This document shows, in pieces, positions 2,469-14,237 of a stretch of DNA of 39,530 nt (the stretch's first letter is position 1; each line of letters begins with the position of its first letter). The position numbers and the translations under genes are program-made. The notes below the pieces were generated by a model, which was given only the letters and a program-made list of their open reading frames with translations, was not told the DNA's origin and made no database searches. The DNA is from Flavobacteriales bacterium. GTDB taxonomy: Bacteria; Bacteroidota; Bacteroidia; Flavobacteriales_C; GCA-002722245. Location of the stretch: the NCBI GenBank assembly GCA_002722245.1, contig PBLA01000008.1, positions 1 through 39,530 on the forward strand, in the 5' to 3' direction.

Positions 2469-3086
2469 TTATTTGTTCTCTTCAAGGGTTTGCAAATAAA
2501 GCTCTTCAACTTCTTTACGAGCCCAATCGAATTTTCGCAGGAAATTCAAACTTGATTTAACGGTTTGATTGCTTTTAAAGCAGTTAATGTCAATTCTATC
2601 AGCTAAACCATACCATCCATATTCAGCTAATAAGTATTCTAAGATTTCTGTGAGCTTAACTCCATGTAATGGATTGTTTTCTTGTTTTTGAGATTTGCCT
2701 CCTTTCATTGTCGCGAAGAATAATCCAGTGTCCGTATATTGTTTGAAGTTCGTGATTAATCCATTTTTAATTGTGTAACGATGAATGAAGTCAGCCTCTA
2801 AATACTTTCCGGATTTATTAAAGGTTCCTTTGTATTGTCCTACTGCAATAATGTCTTCTCCTGCATCTAGAAATTCGGTAACATCAGTTTTCCAATCCGT
2901 CCAATTCTCAGAGAATCCTTTAAATACGTTTTCGAAGATTTCATTAGCTCCAATGTATTCACCTCCATTTGGGAAACCTTTCATTTGATTCCATTTGATT
3001 CTTTCATGGAAGATTTTTCGAATTTGTTCTAGGTTACGGTTTTGAAAGTGTTCGTAAAGGTTTTGGACGATTGAGAGGTTGCTCAT
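2469..3086 (-). CDS. SnoaL-like (NTF2 fold) domain fused to VF530/DUF2132 domain
   Basis: The predicted product has 205 residues. Residues 1-125 resemble SnoaL-like/NTF2-fold proteins: an N-terminal helix, a WTDWKTDVTEFLDAGEDIIA strand pair, then GQYKGTF and the ADFIHRYTIKNGLI strand. This fold serves as ketosteroid-isomerase-like enzymes or small-molecule binders. Residues 138-198 (NNPLHGVKLTEILEYL, YGWYGLADRIDINCF, SVKSSLNFLRKFDWAR) match the VF530/DUF2132 family, a small bacterial domain annotated as DNA-binding that is usually a stand-alone protein of about 70-80 residues. I chose the start at 3086 because the upstream ATG at 3158 would add 24 residues encoded inside an intergenic repeat copy. 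No signal peptide is present, so it is cytoplasmic. Domain calls are from motif memory; what the fusion does is unknown. Confidence 0.75.
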   Translation of the reverse strand: MSNLSIVQNLYEHFQNRNLEQIRKIFHERIKWNQMKGFPNGGEYIGANEIFENVFKGFSENWTDWKTDVTEFLDAGEDIIAVGQYKGTFNKSGKYLEADFIHRYTIKNGLITNFKQYTDTGLFFATMKGGKSQKQENNPLHGVKLTEILEYLLAEYGWYGLADRIDINCFKSNQTVKSSLNFLRKFDWARKEVEELYLQTLEENK

Positions 3087-3115
3087 GAAGTAAAGGTAGT
3101 TTATACAGAAATAAA

Positions 3116-3159
3116 TCGGAAGTTGTTGGGAGGTCTCGGAATATAAAGAATAAGTCAAA
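3116..3159 (+). repeat. Dispersed intergenic repeat, copy A
   Basis: This 44-bp segment aligns with copy B at 6038-6083 with 39 of 44 positions identical and a 2-nt gap. The shared core is GGAATATA, two variable bases, then GAATAAGT. It lies between the SnoaL-VF530 start and the end of the GSDH gene. Together with copy B, in the same orientation, it brackets the GSDH gene. A diverged relative lies on the opposite strand near 7255-7295. Confidence 0.7.
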
Positions 3160-3225
3160 CTACTCTGTTCTCTTCAACTCGAAGATATTTATTCAACACA
3201 CTCAGTTTTTAGGTTTATAATTACT

Positions 3226-5868
3226 TTATTTTTTCAAAAACTTTCCTGAATGAATTTTATCTTTTGATTTAATTTGAAAGAAATACATCCCTTGTGATAA
3301 TTTTGATATGTTCATGGTGAAAAAGGTATTTTTATACTCTTCCTCTGTCAGCTTTTTTTCTTGTATTAAATTTCCTTTGATGTCAAATAATTTAACTTCA
3401 GAAGGTTGGGAATCAGGATAATAAATATGTATTTGCGTTAATCCAGGATTTGGGAATATTTCTAAATTCTCAATTTTGTTAGGATCAAGAGTGATGTTAG
3501 GATCGTACTTTGAATAGAGGAATTCTTGAGGGACAATTTGCTTACTTTGGTATGGATGTTCCCAAAACATTTTTATTGTCGCAATCCATTGGGCTTCCTG
3601 ATAGTTTAATTGAATGTTATATTGTTCACCGGCATTTAAGTCTACCGTGAAGGATTCTTCTCCTCCCCAATTTCTATCAAATTTTTCTTCATTGTCAAAA
3701 GATACATCTAGCCAATCATCAAATTCAAAAGTGAATTTATACTCGCCATCTACAGGAGCTAAAATACTTCCTTCCCAAGTAACTGATATTGAGTCGTTTT
3801 TCATTCCCCATCCAAATGAACCATAATCTAATTGATAATCAATAACAGGATCAATACGAGTCATTAATGAAGGTTCAGTAAAGTTGATGTTTTCATAAAA
3901 AGTAAATGTTAATCCATCTCCTTCTCCCTGAATATATTTTCCAACATATGAATAATGCGCTGTAATTTTATCAAAGTCTCCACCCAAAAAGGTTAAGTTG
4001 TTATCGGTTGAATCGTTAGACCAGTTTGAAAATCTAAAAAGAGAATCATTACGATAAGTATATTCCTCTGCAGTTAATACTCTCTGATTTCCATTGACAA
4101 TATTGAAACTGTAATTGGTTGTTTTAGGACTGCCATCCAATGCAATAGTTAATCCGGTGGGTATTGTTTTTAAATCAATAGAGGAAGTGATAGGATGAAT
4201 ATCAACATACTTAGAGCTTGATAAGCCTTTACTGTCGGTTCCTTTTAAATGAATTCTATACCAAACATTTGTACTGGTTTCTCCAACTCTTGGAAGATAA
4301 ATAGCTCCTTTGGAAATTCCTGATGTACTTGGGAGACCTGGGTGTGAATGATCATCATGATGGAAGAAAATGGTCCATTCAAGTTGATTAGAATTTAGCG
4401 TTCCATCTTCTGGATCTAATGCACTTCCTTCAAAATAAAGAGAATCTCCATATTCATAATTTGTGCCAGTTGTGGGTTCTAAAATTGAAATAATCGGTCT
4501 TTTATTTGACGTAACTAGTAGTGTGATGGTATCACTAATGACTTCCCCTAATGAATTGCTCACTTTGCAATAAACGGTGCTGCCACTATCCGATAGTATA
4601 ACGTTTTCTAAAATTAAATTCGCTGAATTTCCTGAAGAAATTGGTGAGTCATTTTTATACCATTGGTAGTTTAGTGTCTCATCTCCAGTGATTTCGATTT
4701 TCATTTCTATATTTTCGCCAACTGATACCATTTCCGTTCTTGGTTGAGCAGTTATAAAAGGGGTTCCATTTCCTACATAGCTAATACGATATACTTGACT
4801 GGGGCCGTAACCAAAAATAGAATAATATAAATACCCATTTTTTGATACGAATAGACTTGAAATATTATGGGCTCCAAATATAAGTGTGTCTTCAATAATT
4901 CCTGTTTCTGGATTTAATCGGTGCACATTACCAGTACAAAAATCACTAAAAAAATATTTATCCATCCATTCTGGTGGATATGTAGATGATTCAGGAGAAT
5001 AAAAGGCTCCTCCAACCACAGCACAGTAACCATTTTCGTGGTCATAAGTGAATATTGGATCTTTATAATTGTCTGGGGCAGATTGATCTATGATAGGGCC
5101 TTCAATAATAGGCCATCCATAGTTTGATCCAGTTGTAATATCATTAATTTCTTCATAGGCTTGATCCCCAACGTCATTTGCAAAAAGTCTGCCGGTTTTT
5201 GGATGTATATCCATTGTAAAAGGATTCCTTAATCCTAAAGCATATATTAGTTTGCCATTTCCTTCTGCAGTATTATAGAACGGATTATCAGTAGGTGCTG
5301 AGCCATCCCTGTTTAATCGTAAGATTTTTCCGAATAAATTATCCAGTTTTTGAGGTTTTTCAGTATATAATCCATCCCCAACAGACACAAGAAGAGTTGT
5401 GTCAAGTGCCCAACGCATAGCACCTGAATTATGCGTAGTGCCGTTCAAAGGATCAAGATCTAATAAAATCTTTTCACTTCCAGGAATAACTGTATTACCA
5501 TTTGAAGTAAATCGTGATAGTCGATTATGATTTTGACCAATTACATTATAATAAACAAATACATGTCCGGTATTATCAAAATCTTTATCCAGTAGAAAAC
5601 CACTTAATCCTCTTTCTCCATATTCATCAACATCTAAGTCCAAAAAGGGTGTTTGAAGTAGGACTCCGTTTTCCATAATTCGAATTGTACCCGATTTTTC
5701 TGATATGAAGATTCGTCCATCTGGAGCTATTTGTATGGCAGTAGGATTTATTAAATCTCCTGTAATTAACTCAGCGGCGTAACCTTCTTTAATGGAGAAG
5801 TTGTGCCCATAAGAAGATGATACGTGTAAAATAAATATTGTGAATAAGGTAAGTAATTTTGTGTTCAT
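3226..5868 (-). CDS. Secreted glucose/sorbosone dehydrogenase-like protein with Ig, PA14 and T9SS sorting domains
   Basis: This 880-residue exported protein has a signal peptide at residues 1-21. Residues 28-363 form a GSDH-type six-bladed propeller (soluble aldose dehydrogenase/YliI/HHIP-like) with NPTAIQIAPDGRIFISEK, THNSGAMRW (His146 corresponds to the catalytic His position of PQQ glucose dehydrogenases), LGLRNPFTMDIHPKTG and GSNYGWP. An Ig-like domain follows (about 368-453, with YQWYKND and a D-SG-YCKV strand pair). Next come a linker/PKD-like part (455-560), a PA14-like domain (about 650-785, VDGEYKFTFEFDDWLDV) and a type A T9SS sorting domain (801-880: NLEIFPNP, LFDIKGNLI, LSQGMYFFQI). 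The PA14 domain suggests carbohydrate binding. Export across the outer membrane by T9SS is inferred from the C-terminal domain. The substrate and use of PQQ are unknown. It stands alone between repeat copies A and B. Confidence 0.88.
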   Translation of the reverse strand: MNTKLLTLFTIFILHVSSSYGHNFSIKEGYAAELITGDLINPTAIQIAPDGRIFISEKSGTIRIMENGVLLQTPFLDLDVDEYGERGLSGFLLDKDFDNTGHVFVYYNVIGQNHNRLSRFTSNGNTVIPGSEKILLDLDPLNGTTHNSGAMRWALDTTLLVSVGDGLYTEKPQKLDNLFGKILRLNRDGSAPTDNPFYNTAEGNGKLIYALGLRNPFTMDIHPKTGRLFANDVGDQAYEEINDITTGSNYGWPIIEGPIIDQSAPDNYKDPIFTYDHENGYCAVVGGAFYSPESSTYPPEWMDKYFFSDFCTGNVHRLNPETGIIEDTLIFGAHNISSLFVSKNGYLYYSIFGYGPSQVYRISYVGNGTPFITAQPRTEMVSVGENIEMKIEITGDETLNYQWYKNDSPISSGNSANLILENVILSDSGSTVYCKVSNSLGEVISDTITLLVTSNKRPIISILEPTTGTNYEYGDSLYFEGSALDPEDGTLNSNQLEWTIFFHHDDHSHPGLPSTSGISKGAIYLPRVGETSTNVWYRIHLKGTDSKGLSSSKYVDIHPITSSIDLKTIPTGLTIALDGSPKTTNYSFNIVNGNQRVLTAEEYTYRNDSLFRFSNWSNDSTDNNLTFLGGDFDKITAHYSYVGKYIQGEGDGLTFTFYENINFTEPSLMTRIDPVIDYQLDYGSFGWGMKNDSISVTWEGSILAPVDGEYKFTFEFDDWLDVSFDNEEKFDRNWGGEESFTVDLNAGEQYNIQLNYQEAQWIATIKMFWEHPYQSKQIVPQEFLYSKYDPNITLDPNKIENLEIFPNPGLTQIHIYYPDSQPSEVKLFDIKGNLIQEKKLTEEEYKNTFFTMNISKLSQGMYFFQIKSKDKIHSGKFLKK

Positions 5869-6037
5869 TTGAATGAGAGGAAATTGATATTAAATATAAC
5901 CCTTTTTAGTCATATTTTTTGATTGAAAGTTACCATTCATCTTATGAAATAAATAGAATTTATTTAGTTGATATTTAAAGGTTATGACTTTAATTCCTTA
6001 TTTCTAATAAAGTAAAATCGTTAAAACCAGATATATG

Positions 6038-6083
6038 TCGGGAGTTGTGTAGGGAGATCTAGGAATATATAGAATAAGTTAAA
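6038..6083 (+). repeat. Dispersed intergenic repeat, copy B
   Basis: This 46-bp segment matches copy A (3116-3159) at 39 of 44 aligned positions. It continues into an inverted repeat, AGGAATA at 6061-6067 with TATTCCT at 6085-6091, that ends directly at the stop codon of the MoeZ-like gene. It could act as that gene's 3' hairpin. The remainder of the 5869-6091 gap is A/T-rich with no other recognisable feature. Confidence 0.7.
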
Positions 6084-6091
6084 GTATTCCT

Positions 6092-7198
6092 TTACCTCCT
6101 GTTATGTTCGTATCTCAGATATTCATCTATTCCGCCTTTTAAATTGTAAATATGTTCAATTCCTTTTTCTTTAAGTATTTCAATCGCTTGTGCACTTCTC
6201 CCTCCCATTTTACAGTGTACAACTATTTTTTTGTCTTTTGGGATTTCGTTTGAGCGTGACTCTAGTTGAGATAATGGTATAAGTTTTCCCCCGAGATTCG
6301 TTAACTCATATTCGGATTGTTCTCTCACATCCAAAAGATAAAATGGTTCTCCTGATTGCTTTAATGCATTAAATTCACTGACTGTTATTTCAATTTTGTC
6401 ATCTTTTTTTGTTCCGCAAAATATGTCATAATCAATCAATTTAGTAATTGGTTTTTGTTTGGGATCTACAGTAAGATTTAATTTTGTCGTATTCATGGTT
6501 AAAGCATCAATGGTTAAAAGTTCTCCTGAAAGAGTTGAACCAATTCCTGTAATAAGTTTTATTACCTCATTAGCTTGAATTGAGCCAACAAGTCCAGGAA
6601 GAACACCTAAAACTCCTGCTTCAGCACAAGAAGGAATTGATCCTGCTTTTGGTGGAGTAGGAAAGAGGTCTCTGTAATTGATTCCTCTTTTTTTATTTTC
6701 ACTGTAGTTAAAAACAGTAACCTGACCTTGAAATTTTAGAATAGATGCAAATACATTTATCTTCCCTGTGATGACACAAGCATCATTTACCAAATATCTG
6801 GTGGCAAAATTATCCGTGCCATCAGCCACAATATCATATTCCGAAATAATTTCTAATGCGTTGTCGGAATCTAGGAATTCATTATATACGGTGATGTCAA
6901 TGTGTGGATTTAACAATCGAAGTTTCTTTGCTGCAATTTCTGCCTTTGGTTGTTTTAAATCATTAACGGAAAACAATATTTGACGGTGCAAGTTGCTTTC
7001 TTCAACAACATCTCCATCAACAATTCCAATTTTCCCAATACCTGCCGCGGCCAAGTATTGTAAAACGGGGCAACCTAAACCACCAGCTCCTATTATTAAA
7101 ACTTTAGCTTGTTTTAACTTTAATTGTCCTTCTTCACCTAATTCAGGCATGAGAAGGTGGCGGCTATAGTGAAGTTTTTCTTCTGTTGTAAGTTCCAT
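6092..7198 (-). CDS. MoeZ-like adenylyltransferase/sulfurtransferase (ThiF/MoeB domain + rhodanese)
   Basis: This is a cytoplasmic E1-like enzyme that adenylates the C-terminal glycine of a small sulfur carrier (ThiS or MoaD type). A fused rhodanese domain then supplies sulfur. Residues 1-250 are the ThiF/MoeB/HesA domain: nucleotide loop GAGGLG (37-42), D61-G-D63, NLHRQ with Arg72, ADGTDN (125-130) and catalytic-type Cys191 in PSCAEAGVLG. Residues 270-364 are rhodanese with active-site Cys329 in HCKMGGRSA. The zinc-binding CxxC pairs of classical MoeB are absent (NYRDLFP instead of CxxC-LFP; only one Cys near 261), as in the MoeZ-type subgroup. It may serve thiamine, given thiH at the left edge, or molybdopterin synthesis; no sulfur-carrier gene is visible here. 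It lies 101 nt downstream of exonuclease III on the same strand, with a long hairpin between. Confidence 0.88.
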   Translation of the reverse strand: MELTTEEKLHYSRHLLMPELGEEGQLKLKQAKVLIIGAGGLGCPVLQYLAAAGIGKIGIVDGDVVEESNLHRQILFSVNDLKQPKAEIAAKKLRLLNPHIDITVYNEFLDSDNALEIISEYDIVADGTDNFATRYLVNDACVITGKINVFASILKFQGQVTVFNYSENKKRGINYRDLFPTPPKAGSIPSCAEAGVLGVLPGLVGSIQANEVIKLITGIGSTLSGELLTIDALTMNTTKLNLTVDPKQKPITKLIDYDIFCGTKKDDKIEITVSEFNALKQSGEPFYLLDVREQSEYELTNLGGKLIPLSQLESRSNEIPKDKKIVVHCKMGGRSAQAIEILKEKGIEHIYNLKGGIDEYLRYEHNRR

Positions 7199-7215
7199 AT
7201 TAGGGAGTTAAAGAA

Positions 7216-7245
7216 GATATCGGGAGATATCGGGAGATATCGGAA
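7216..7245 (+). repeat. Three tandem 10-bp units
   Basis: Three head-to-tail copies of GATATCGGGA lie at 7216-7225, 7226-7235 and 7236-7245, the last ending in GGAA. They make up the left side of the long hairpin at 7222-7280. This looks like slippage expansion inside the palindromic element. Confidence 0.8.
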
Positions 7246-7280
7246 ATGAAATTGTATTCCGATATATTCTGATGTCTTCC
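7222..7280. repeat. Long imperfect palindrome (REP/MITE-like element)
   Basis: Arms 7222-7245 and 7257-7280 pair over 24 positions around an 11-nt loop. One mismatch (7236 against 7266) and several G-U-type pairs interrupt the stem; the inner 9 bp (ATATCGGAA / TTCCGATAT) are perfect. The reverse strand of the right half resembles copies A and B (GGAAGT, GAATATA, GAATA). It lies between the stop of exonuclease III (7300) and the start of the MoeZ-like gene (7198), so it may end or stabilise one transcript. No long T-run follows. Confidence 0.7.
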
Positions 7281-7299
7281 TCTCACTTCCAATATATTC

Positions 7300-10278: not shown

Positions 10279-10306
10279 TCCCTCGCCTTTTGGTGAGGGA
10301 TTTTTT
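10279..10306 (+). terminator. Rho-independent terminator of dnaK
   Basis: A 9-bp stem, TCCCTCGCC / GGTGAGGGA with one G-U pair and a TTTT loop, is followed directly by six Ts. It lies 30 nt after the dnaK stop. The T-run overlaps the stop codon of the convergent gene ending at 10305. Confidence 0.9.
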
Positions 10307-11351
10307 ATTTAATCCTTTTTATTTGATTGACGTTTTGAAGAATTAAAACAAAAGGGAAGTTTACTTCCTTAATGTCATCAATAAATTCAGGGGATTCTCT
10401 AAGGAATAAAAAGAGTTCATCTTCCATGACTTCAAACGATTCAATGTTGTAATAGTAGTTTTCTTTATCCATAATTACATCATTATTAAATTCAAATAGA
10501 TCGCCTTTTTGAGGATGTACTAAAAAGAGTTTGTTTTCCATTCCAGGATATGGATGGGTGAGTACTAAAAAATAATCTTTATATTTTCCAATTTGTTGAA
10601 TAGACTCCCATTTTAGTTTTTGAAGATTTTGATATAAAATACCATCTGCAACGAAGAATATTTGATGAGCTGTATCGGTTTCCATATAAATGGAATGACC
10701 GGTTTTAAATATTCTTGATGAACCAATTGTATCAACTAATTCAGGCCATTCAGGGCGCAAATTAAATTTGGTGATTTGTCTTGCTTTATTGAGTTTTTCT
10801 GCATCAAACGTAATCCAGCTTTTTGAGGTAGAATCCGTTTTTCCATGAATAGTATTTAATTTTTTAATGATTTTCCCTTTTGCTAATAAGCGATGTGAAG
10901 TGGGAGGGTCGTAGAAGGTTTTTCTAATTTTTGGATTGAAGGTTGCGTGTGAAGTAAAATACCTTTTGTCAGTCATCTCCTTTTTTGAAGAGTACACGTC
11001 AAGTAGCCATCCTAAAGTAGGGTCTAGTGTCTTACTCGCAGGTGTTTTAAAGATTATTGAGTCCACAAATTGAGTGATTTTTTTGTATTGAGGCGCCAAT
11101 AACTCGTCACATATGGGTACTGTATTTATAAGTGAAGGGTGATTAATTTGAGGTTTTATATTGAGTGTACATTTTTTTTCGCCTTGGTCATATGTTAGAA
11201 CAGCATAATCAATTTCTCCTAAATAGGTGTTGATTAATAGTTGTTCGATTGCTCCATCTCCATCAAAATCTTCTTTAATAATACGTATATCACGCTGTCC
11301 AAAAACAGCATGGGTAAATAACCAGATTATGCTTAGTGTTAAGTATCTCAA
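10305..11351 (-). CDS. Secreted protein of unknown function
   Basis: The predicted product has 348 residues and starts at a TTG whose TTGA overlaps the stop codon of the upstream DUF4919 gene, implying translational coupling. No ATG fits, and the TTG gives a good signal peptide ending HAVFG-Q at residues 1-18. The mature part opens with a DFDGDG motif (27-33), a calcium-loop-like sequence seen in VCBS/FG-GAP propeller proteins. There is no second copy, so I do not assign that family. The rest is a mix of beta-rich and lysine-rich segments that I do not recognise. It is the last gene of a three-gene minus-strand group (13038 to 10305). Confidence 0.7.
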   Translation of the reverse strand: MRYLTLSIIWLFTHAVFGQRDIRIIKEDFDGDGAIEQLLINTYLGEIDYAVLTYDQGEKKCTLNIKPQINHPSLINTVPICDELLAPQYKKITQFVDSIIFKTPASKTLDPTLGWLLDVYSSKKEMTDKRYFTSHATFNPKIRKTFYDPPTSHRLLAKGKIIKKLNTIHGKTDSTSKSWITFDAEKLNKARQITKFNLRPEWPELVDTIGSSRIFKTGHSIYMETDTAHQIFFVADGILYQNLQKLKWESIQQIGKYKDYFLVLTHPYPGMENKLFLVHPQKGDLFEFNNDVIMDKENYYYNIESFEVMEDELFLFLRESPEFIDDIKEVNFPFVLILQNVNQIKRIK

Positions 11352-12025
11352 AATCGTCTGAATTCTTGAATCAATGAGGTGTCAAAATAAAGATCAAATT
11401 GCTCAAAATCTTTAAATACGGTAACTACTTCATACGTATGTTTTTTCTTTCTTTTTCGAACTCTTTTTTTAATTTGCATTCTCTGAAGTTGCGTGAGTAC
11501 TTCTATGTCCTTTAAACCTGTTATAATATAGGCTGTTTCCATTGATTTTCCATCTCCTGATTTAAGAATCATATTACCAAGACGCTCGTAAATAATTCGA
11601 TGCTGTTTAGCTCGAATGGTGTCTGTAAGGCTGTTGTAAGCATGTGAGATTTCAACATGGCCCATAAGGCATGTTGGATAATAACTAATTAATGAGTCTG
11701 CATATTTTAATGCTTTTTTCCATTCTTTATTATCATTAAGTGCCATGATTTTTAATTCTAAGCTTAAAAATCGATCTGGATTGTAATCTGGTTGAAGGAC
11801 ATAGCCATAATATCCCATGGCTATAGCGGTGTCAGAAACAGTTGAGTCTGGTCTCCATATTTTTAGGATCATATCTTCAATATAATAGGTTGTATCTACT
11901 TGGGTTGTTAACAGGGTGATTTGATCCAAAGTATAGCCATAGATTGTTTTTTTAAACTTGTAACCGCTCTGAGCATAGGAAGATAATGATAGAAGTATGC
12001 AAAGAATTAGAGAGGCTTTTTTCAT
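11348..12025 (-). CDS. DUF4919 family exported protein
   Basis: The predicted product has 225 residues. I chose the ATG at 12025 because it begins the signal peptide MKKASLILCILLSLSSYAQ; the longer frame from 12106 puts 27 unlikely residues ahead of it. It shows the DUF4919 hallmarks: GYYGYVLQPDYNP, a tetratricopeptide-like helical pair around ALKYADSLISYYPTCLMGH, and KSGDGKSMETAYII. The family is largely restricted to Bacteroidota and has no known function. The C-terminus is very basic (KKRVRKRKKKH). Its stop overlaps the start of the next gene by 4 nt. Confidence 0.75.
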   Translation of the reverse strand: MKKASLILCILLSLSSYAQSGYKFKKTIYGYTLDQITLLTTQVDTTYYIEDMILKIWRPDSTVSDTAIAMGYYGYVLQPDYNPDRFLSLELKIMALNDNKEWKKALKYADSLISYYPTCLMGHVEISHAYNSLTDTIRAKQHRIIYERLGNMILKSGDGKSMETAYIITGLKDIEVLTQLQRMQIKKRVRKRKKKHTYEVVTVFKDFEQFDLYFDTSLIQEFRRF

Positions 12026-12150
12026 TTTTTTTGGTACGATTGAAGTATTCAAATGTTGCATAAGATAAGAAATATAGGAACTACATTTATATAGTTTTAG
12101 CTGCAATATTTATCCTTGTGAAAATAAGGTTGCAGAGTCTTCTTTTTCTT

Positions 12151-13038
12151 TTAATATTCCATCGTATTGATGCCAAGGAAATCTTTTGAAAATGGTGCTT
12201 TATTTTGAAGAGATCCTCGATCATAGATTCTTTTTAAGCATTTGTTTTGATGGGCATAAAAATCCGATACGTTTCTTATTTCAGTTGCTTCTAAGTGTAT
12301 TTTTTCTTTTATGTTTTTAAGGTAGTGATGAAGTATATATTGTTGCAGTCCACCAGTAGATAATATTTGTTTATTATTATGGTCATAAACAAAGTGGTGT
12401 TTATTCAATAAATCAGCATGGTTTATGACTACTCGTTGATCATTTTGCTGAGATGAGTAAATTATTTTGTCATTTTGTTTAATTACTGTTTTTATGTTTT
12501 TGTGCCATCCGTTTTGATTTTCATAGTGATTGGTATAATAGTTAATGATAATAGGGTGGCTTAGGCGAACTTTTTCATTAACAGAATAATGCTGTATTTT
12601 TTCAATTGAATTAATTCGAGTGTTCTTTTTCAAGTACATTGTATTGGTGTCCGGTAATTCATTAATTTCGATACGAAGGTATTCTTTCATATTATATTCA
12701 TTGACATGATGAGATTGCCCATAATCATCTGCCATAAATTTGTAGGTTGAATGATATTTTATTCCGTAAAGTATAGCAGCGAGTAATTTGTCATTAGAAG
12801 TATTGCTTGAAATAACAAAGGTTTCTTTCGGGTTGATTTGTATCGATTTTTTCGTTTCGACTAAATTTCCGTAGATGATTTTTTTATACTTTTTTTTGGA
12901 TGTTCTTTCTTTTTGAAAAGTGGGATCAAATACTTTTTTTAAGTATGTGTCGTAATGCTTGTCAATTCTATTATATTGAGCGTTAATTTGTTGAATAGAA
13001 ATTACACAAGAGAATAGGATCACCATAAACTGCTTCAT
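12151..13038 (-). CDS. Exported protein of unknown function
   Basis: The predicted product has 295 residues with a signal peptide (MKQFMVILFSCVISIQQINA-Q). The mature part is rich in Lys, Asn, Tyr and His, with no domain that I recognise. Base composition is slightly more A/T-rich than the surrounding housekeeping genes. It lies 125 nt upstream of the DUF4919 gene on the same strand, so co-transcription is possible. All three products of this group carry signal peptides, which suggests an envelope role; that is inference. Confidence 0.6.
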   Translation of the reverse strand: MKQFMVILFSCVISIQQINAQYNRIDKHYDTYLKKVFDPTFQKERTSKKKYKKIIYGNLVETKKSIQINPKETFVISSNTSNDKLLAAILYGIKYHSTYKFMADDYGQSHHVNEYNMKEYLRIEINELPDTNTMYLKKNTRINSIEKIQHYSVNEKVRLSHPIIINYYTNHYENQNGWHKNIKTVIKQNDKIIYSSQQNDQRVVINHADLLNKHHFVYDHNNKQILSTGGLQQYILHHYLKNIKEKIHLEATEIRNVSDFYAHQNKCLKRIYDRGSLQNKAPFSKDFLGINTMEY

Positions 13039-13069
13039 GATGATGTTAGAGAAAAAAACATGCCAAAAA

Positions 13070-13297
13070 TTAATGAATTAATAATTTCTTAACCTCTTTA
13101 TGAATTTCCTCTGGAATGAGCAGTCTATAGTTTAATCCATTTTTATTTCCAATTCGGGTAGCTACATAGGCTAAAAATCCTTTATTGGTGATTTTTTTGG
13201 ACAATTGTACTGCATGTTCCATTTTTTTAAATACTGCAATAGTTACCATTCTTAATTCTTTTGAAGGGTTTACTGAATGGTTTTTAAGTTGTTGCAT
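13070..13297 (-). CDS. Small SPOR-like protein, no signal peptide
   Basis: The predicted product has 75 residues. From residue 17 the pattern MVTIAVFKK, HAVQLSKKITNKGF, AYVATRIGNKNG, LNYRLLI and EEIHKEVKKLL follows the beta-alpha-beta-beta-alpha order of SPOR domains, which bind denuded peptidoglycan. The last beta strand is missing, and there is no export signal or membrane segment, so septal binding is unlikely as it stands. The start could also be the internal Met17 (13249). It might be a degraded remnant of a larger SPOR protein or a real small protein. It ends 31 nt before the following gene. The call rests on pattern only. Confidence 0.5.
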   Translation of the reverse strand: MQQLKNHSVNPSKELRMVTIAVFKKMEHAVQLSKKITNKGFLAYVATRIGNKNGLNYRLLIPEEIHKEVKKLLIH

Positions 13298-13307
13298 TAC
13301 TTTTATA

Positions 13308-13368
13308 GACTTTTTTTAAGTCATGATTGGTAACAAAACAAGTGTTTTGTTGTTATAGCTTTACCAAT
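13308..13368. ncRNA. Structured intergenic segment, possible small RNA or tRNA-like relic
   Basis: Within the 136-bp gap 13298-13433 there are nested inverted repeats: GACTT/AAGTC at 13308-13322, ATTGGTAA at 13326-13333 with TTACCAAT at 13361-13368, and AACAAAAC at 13332-13339 with GTTTTGTT at 13344-13351. On the minus strand from 13379 the sequence begins GGCACAACTCAATTGGTAAA, which recalls a tRNA acceptor/D-arm. The 3' acceptor strand and a TTCGA T-loop are missing, so no functional tRNA is supported. A terminator facing the + strand follows at 13409-13435. This is a candidate only. Confidence 0.3.
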
Positions 13369-13408
13369 TGAGTTGTGCCTTAATTTGGTTGGAAAATGTC
13401 AATGTAGG

Positions 13409-13435
13409 AAGGCTGTTCTTGAACAGCCTTTTTTT
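13409..13435 (+). terminator. Intrinsic terminator-like hairpin
   Basis: A perfect 10-bp stem (AAGGCTGTTC / GAACAGCCTT) with a 2-nt TT loop is followed by TTTTT on the + strand. Genes on both sides run on the minus strand, for which only a weak U-rich tail (UUCCUAC) follows. It may still serve the minus gene ending at 13434, or it may end a + strand transcript from the structured gap. Confidence 0.7.
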
Positions 13436-14237
13436 AGTCGTGGTTTTCTAGTTTTATAGAGTTCGCAACGGAAACAGGAATACCCTCTTCAATAGTATAA
13501 ATAACAGCAACTATACCTGTGTTATCAAGTGTTTCTCCTGATAAGTCTAACGTTAAAATTTCTCGAAATTCGTCTCCTTTAGCTGCAGCATCTAAATCTT
13601 TTCCCAAACTTGGGGTTAATGCGGATACAACTTTATTTTTCATGGTGAAAAGTGATGTTCCTTCATCTGTGGCTTGATTTGCCAGTTCGGATTTCCGATA
13701 AGAATAAACGGCTAACCGATGAGAGGAGGCACTGAAAGATTTATTATATGATCCTTTTACATAAACTTTTAAATTGCCTTGACTTAAGGACGATTTTATT
13801 CCAAGATTGATGTCTGGTTGGATTTGTCTTTGAGTAATAATAGATTGATAAAGTTCAAGGGTATCAATGTTGTGGCATTGCATATTACTAAAAAAAGCAG
13901 GCGTAGTTTCCAATGTTTCATTACCGTTATTGTCAAAAACAAATTTAATTTCTTCTGCAATATTGGAATAGTGTATATCTGTTAATGCGGGGTACATCAT
14001 TACGCCATTTACAAACTCACCTTCGATACTATCAATGGTATTATTTAAAATAGCTTGTAGTTTAGGTTGTGCATGATCAGCGCAAATGGGTAAATCGGTA
14101 TTGCTAAATACAAACACAAACGGTCTGTATTCTGATTCTATCGTGATGCTATTCCAAAATGAACTAGATTGGTTATTGTATCTACAACTTACTAGGGACA
14201 GAATTATAGAGAGAAAGAGGAGCAGTTTTTTTGACAT
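13434..14237 (-). CDS. Lipoprotein of unknown function, possibly Omp28-like
   Basis: The predicted lipoprotein has 267 residues, a signal peptide and the lipobox LVSC with Cys18. The centre, with a LKVYVKGSY strand followed by HRLAVYSYRKSELANQ and a Lys/Val segment, is reminiscent of the Omp28-related family of Bacteroidota outer-membrane lipoproteins, but I would not assign it firmly. It lacks a thioredoxin-like CxxC motif. It is divergent from the large metallopeptidase-like gene at 14297, and the two share a 59-bp start-to-start region that must hold both promoters. Confidence 0.6.
   Translation of the reverse strand: MSKKLLLFLSIILSLVSCRYNNQSSSFWNSITIESEYRPFVFVFSNTDLPICADHAQPKLQAILNNTIDSIEGEFVNGVMMYPALTDIHYSNIAEEIKFVFDNNGNETLETTPAFFSNMQCHNIDTLELYQSIITQRQIQPDINLGIKSSLSQGNLKVYVKGSYNKSFSASSHRLAVYSYRKSELANQATDEGTSLFTMKNKVVSALTPSLGKDLDAAAKGDEFREILTLDLSGETLDNTGIVAVIYTIEEGIPVSVANSIKLENHD

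Follow-up and report, generated by a model that had tools for sequence, protein, structure and literature searches.

Introduction

REP elements are palindromic and numerous, and the pho box has a period of 11 bp. PhoB binds the pho box head-to-tail and contacts sigma (PMC3348028), and winged-helix proteins of the BldC/RdfS type form head-to-tail filaments on repeats, in which each protomer takes up about 10 bp of DNA (PMC11963761). Direct repeats of the heptamer TAACTGA are found in the Beggiatoaceae and in some Bacteroidetes (PMC4679880), and because they lie just before start codons they probably act post-transcriptionally. The BrickBuilt MITE of Porphyromonas gingivalis is made up of 23-bp units with a leader and a tail that have inverted ends, and is present in 19 copies (PMC4596501).

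Here we describe arrays of a decamer, their number, their occurrence in a single genome, and their fixed spacing from a subset of promoters. The window (the whole stretch of DNA analysed, 39,530 nt, corresponding to bases 1–39530 of contig 8 in a genome assembly of 3.0 Mb and 34 contigs) contains three of them, referred to as copies A, B and C (Table 1). As at the pho box, the units are directly repeated at roughly every helical turn, over the −35/−33 region and upstream of the −10/−7 box, but the period is 10 rather than 11, and both the sequence and the associated genes are different. The repeat step of about 10 bp is shared with the BldC/RdfS filaments, although BldC sites are looser in sequence. 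The TAACTGA repeats are likewise short, intergenic, direct, upstream of genes and patchily distributed between relatives, but the heptamers stand just before start codons, whereas the arrays here have 10-bp units and lie upstream of a −7 box. BrickBuilt, too, is a Bacteroidetes example of direct repeats between genes, with one copy near argS, but the arrays have neither the 23-bp units nor the leader, tail, inverted ends or 19 copies. REP elements are short and intergenic too, but the repeats here are direct and are found at five loci. An earlier note on this DNA had described a palindromic mobile family; our reading is now of a private, promoter-phased decamer array.

Table 1. Coordinates of the arrays, genes and associated features.
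Feature	Position	Strand	Remarks
SnoaL-like + VF530 gene	2469..3086	−	array A at promoter
Duplication copy on the side of the SnoaL+VF530 gene	3077..3179	−	holds array A, −7 box and start codon
−7 box TACCTTTA	3091..3098	−	11 bp from array A; 1 mismatch to the array-N11-box pattern
Copy A, decamer array	3111..3154	−	upstream of the SnoaL+VF530 gene
Bracketed gene	3226..5868	−	GSDH domain + Ig + PA14 + T9SS sorting tail
Probable own −7 box of the GSDH gene, TATATTTA	5890..5897	−	about 130 bp from array B; from sequence
Second duplication copy	5999..6103	−	with array B, a decayed −7 box and the very end of the ThiF gene
Copy B, decamer array	6033..6078	−	units as in copy A, plus a 2-bp insertion
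ThiF/MoeB-like + rhodanese gene	6092..7198	−	
Copy C, inner array	7213..7246	+	ATATCGGGAG ATATCGGGAG ATATCGGAAA
Copy C, opposite-facing array	7254..7298	−	AATATATTGGAAG TGAGAGGAAG ACATCAGAAT ATATCGGAAT AC
Arrays outside the window	C30:31756-31804; C7:53082-53108		one upstream of pnp, one upstream of serS

Structure of the arrays

All copies are head-to-tail runs of two to five direct units of a decamer with the consensus 5′-ATATCGGRAG (reverse, CTYCCGATAT; in promoter orientation, CTTCYGATAT; unit form CTTCCGATAT). The tandem period is 10 bp, approximately one helical turn, as in direct-repeat operators of the pho-box type. On the plus strand the register of copy A is AAATCGGAAG/TTGTTGGGAG/GTCTCGGAAT, and copy C contains 2.9 perfect units. 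Among the direct repeats of the window, copies A and B rank first (42 nt, 83%; the runner-up family has 38 nt and 76%), with about 38 of 44 bases matching by eye when one 2-bp gap is allowed. A 20-mer consensus of the family finds four sites in the window and none in 100 shuffles, and position weight scans of the window peak at A, B and C, with a top score that clearly exceeds the maxima reached in shuffles.

The A/B repeat had previously been taken to be palindromic. The repeat itself stands, but its self-complementarity is no better than that of shuffled sequences, which were as good or better in 279 of 300 cases for A and 257 of 300 for B. RNA folding is also ordinary (z of +0.67 for A and −0.64 for B, with the serS and pnp copies similarly unremarkable), and the hairpin that had been noted in copy B is therefore nothing out of the ordinary. 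The hairpin reported for copy C, in contrast, is well founded: its inverted repeat has 33-nt arms (7213–7245 and 7257–7289, 73%), and none of 300 shuffles was as good. No palindrome above shuffles is present in A, B or the serS and pnp copies, and a hairpin as the common feature of the family is ruled out by the folding and self-complementarity tests for all copies except C. The arrays have no terminal inverted repeats. Copy C (7213–7298), located between xth and the ThiF gene, is the sole inverted pair of decamer arrays.

Distribution

The whole assembly was searched with sequence patterns and with a sequence-only profile, and statistics on upstream regions were derived from a 453-kb sample. 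Both searches agree on five loci in the 3.0-Mb assembly, all of them intergenic. The profile identifies seven sites, every one inside these five loci; beyond these it gave just a weak match within a coding frame and another, below threshold, within copy C. The earlier note had named a lack of further copies as grounds for refutation; two loci do lie outside the window, but for a dispersed family so small a number comes close to there being no further copies at all. A genome-wide REP family is rejected on this copy number, and the proposal of a REP/MITE-like family is not supported: the 3.0-Mb assembly contains only five loci, the 20 relatives searched lack the arrays, only C is palindromic, and the flanks are mostly unshared.

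Pattern and profile searches revealed no arrays in four congeners or in 16 other relatives, and the weak matches in those genomes all lie within long open frames, at chance level. Across GTDB genomes an exact 2.4-unit pattern has nine matches in scattered phyla, the ones inspected having different flanks; we judge nine to be the number expected from random decamer runs. Viral contigs gave two matches to the pattern and one to a reversed control, and an Rfam search gave none. Within the 453-kb sample there is no other period-10 array at the threshold used, and this genome has no excess of a general class of period-10 promoters. In a Methanosarcina contig (L125:1165-1218), TATCAGAATC/TATCAGAATA decamers follow one another over a long stretch; the unit is similar but presumably unrelated.

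Phasing with promoters

At pnp, serS and copy A, exactly 11 bp separate the innermost decamer from a TAnnTTTR −7 box downstream of it. The arrangement is TTCCGATATCTC-N11-TATATTTG at serS and TTCCGATATCTC-N11-TATCTTTG at pnp, both with boxes of the TAnnTTTG type, and TTCCGATTTATT-N11-TACCTTTA at copy A, before the SnoaL+VF530 gene. This fixed spacing holds in three of the five copies but fails in the other two: the −7 box of copy B is ruined, and copy C, whose inner array lies about 11–15 bp before the ThiF start codon, has only a poor −7 match that overlaps the ATG. The promoter-proximal unit is the best conserved, the distal units being looser, and at both serS and pnp the array is preceded by the terminator hairpin of the neighbouring gene and followed by the promoter. 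The sigma-A box TAnnTTTG of Flavobacterium psychrophilum extends from −12 to −5 (PMC9723704); on this numbering the innermost unit falls at about −36 to −27 (to −24 in a wider estimate), in the −33 region, with the array running upstream.

The 204 intergenic upstream regions of the 453-kb sample contain 96 TAnnTTTR boxes. Decamers at offsets −24 and −34 accompany just three of these, namely those of serS, pnp and copy A, where the summed decamer scores are 21–26 bits (at most −1 at the remaining boxes). Scanning for the full array-N11-TAnnTTTR pattern gives no mismatches at serS and pnp, one at A and at least two at all others listed, with a list total equal to the control rate; however, as the pattern was written after these loci had been seen, their good fit to it does not constitute independent support, and it is the shared spacing that counts. 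At the orthologous promoters of the congeners the −7 boxes are present at a near-equal distance from the ATG and the arrays are absent. Since the congeners have the boxes without the arrays, the phase of the arrays is locked to promoters that already existed.

Two explanations that give the arrays no regulatory role can be considered here. According to the first, they are neutral tandem repeats without meaning, generated by replication slippage; the nearly three perfect units in C would fit, as would the similar decamer runs that occur by chance in unrelated genomes. However, slippage would not yield one unit at five loci, nor an 11-bp phase at three promoters, and it has left no second period-10 array in the sampled 453 kb at the threshold used, and we give this explanation very little credence.

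According to the second, the arrays are remnants of a small dispersed repeat of the MITE or minisatellite kind, which reached a few gaps in this lineage and has since decayed, the promoter spacing reflecting an insertion preference or coincidence. The copies are indeed private to this genome and located in unrelated gaps, C is an inverted pair, Bacteroidetes MITEs with direct-repeat cores are known (e.g. BrickBuilt; PMC4596501), and the terminator-to-promoter gaps at serS and pnp look longer here than in the congeners, judging by sequence; the congener gaps at these two genes are too diverged to align for empty sites or target duplications. We nevertheless regard this origin as rather unlikely, for terminal inverted repeats are lacking, A, B and the serS and pnp copies contain no palindrome, only A and B share flanks significantly, and the phase is locked to −7 boxes that the congeners also have.

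Duplication around the GSDH gene

Long homology common to all five elements was considered and rejected, as it vanished when the flanks were tested alone, with the exception of A and B. No other pair of copies has significant shared flanks, and copy C has only the decamers in common with A and B. Between A and B, homology in fixed register continues beyond the arrays: 14 of 25 bp match on one side (p=0.003) and 19 of 34 bp on the other (p=0.0005), the latter stretch passing through the −7 box and start codon of A; B reads CGATTTTACTTTATTAGAAA where A has TACCTTTACTTCATGAGCAA. Segments 3077–3179 and 5999–6103 therefore appear to be an old direct duplication flanking the GSDH gene, in which about 103 bp from the promoter region of the SnoaL+VF530 gene were copied.

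Of the five genomes of the genus that were compared, only this one has the GSDH gene; the four congeners lack it, and they lack the ThiF-rhodanese gene as well. In one congener (G003) dnaK and xth are followed by an unrelated 783-residue protein, a VF530-type gene and RlmF, and another (G001) has other genes beside xth. The earlier note had suggested comparing close relatives at this locus; in G003 the slot between xth and the VF530-type gene is occupied by an unrelated gene. That gene (L108:5089-7440) has a signal-peptide-like start, and the slot beside xth is variable within the genus. The GC contents of the GSDH gene (0.339) and the ThiF gene (0.350) are ordinary for the window (0.352). Elsewhere in the window, the region 10305–14237 contains minus-strand frames (10305–11351, 12151–13038 and 13434–14237) without a Pfam match.

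With a direct duplication on both sides and absence in the congeners, the GSDH gene has the features of a repeat-flanked cassette, and its insertion is a simpler reading than its loss in the congeners. The cassette proposed in the earlier note is therefore partly supported, for A, B and GSDH only: A and B resemble each other more than any other two copies and belong to the duplication, but the pnp and serS arrays carry no cargo, and bracketing is consequently not the purpose of the array. The A/B duplication represents a plausible route for slotting a secreted-enzyme gene in behind a copied promoter.

A broader version, in which recombination at the arrays built the locus in cassette-like fashion, the ThiF gene entering between C and B and GSDH between B and A, draws on the absence of both genes from the congeners searched, the variable slot beside xth, the direct duplication of A and B, and the presence of three arrays in three consecutive gaps. 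It seems improbable to us: the pnp and serS arrays lie without cargo in gaps beside their usual neighbours, C resembles A and B in its decamers only, no recombinase is known to act on the arrays, and gene loss in the congeners is a possible alternative.

A possible role as operators

The reading that we prefer, with our confidence evenly divided for and against, is that the arrays would be species-specific, helically phased operators for a putative direct-repeat-binding regulator, replacing the −33 element. Direct decamers one helical turn apart would align head-to-tail protomers on one face of the DNA, and at pnp, serS and the SnoaL+VF530 gene the sigma-A −7 box follows the proximal decamer at a fixed 11 bp, which places that decamer over the −33 region. 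A putative regulator bound there could contact RNA polymerase, as PhoB does at the pho box, and would act by activation or by repression through occlusion; protein binding, a preference for activation over repression, and the identity of the regulator are what we infer. The promoter region of the SnoaL+VF530 gene would have been duplicated around the incoming GSDH gene, with the −7 box of B decaying afterwards, and copy B is most likely a relic of this event. Copy C would be a second, inverted array placed before the ThiF gene.

Against the operator reading, only three of the five copies have the spacing, the orthologous promoters of the congeners lack the arrays, and the target genes form no obvious regulon. 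Furthermore, no OmpR-family regulator is present with the arrays and absent without them: all six members in this genome have congeneric orthologues (79–89% identity), and a private regulator of the OmpR type, a further difference from the pho box and PhoB, is therefore unavailable.

To our knowledge, few operators or regulators have been described at Bacteroidetes promoters beyond the −7 box. A tentative extension of the operator reading is that a flavobacterium-like species may have a lineage-specific circuit, with a new decamer operator and a putative head-to-tail regulator recently recruited to serS and pnp, which are housekeeping genes that the congeners run from bare promoters. A phased array that is present in one species and missing at the matching promoters of its congeners would offer a clean case for studying how a new regulatory site is recruited.

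The transcript of the SnoaL+VF530 gene would be leaderless, with its predicted +1 on the A of the ATG. The gene appears to be leaderless both here (2469–3098) and in G003, with the −7 box ending 4 nt before the ATG; the orthologous box in G003, upstream of the VF530-type gene, is TACCTTTG.
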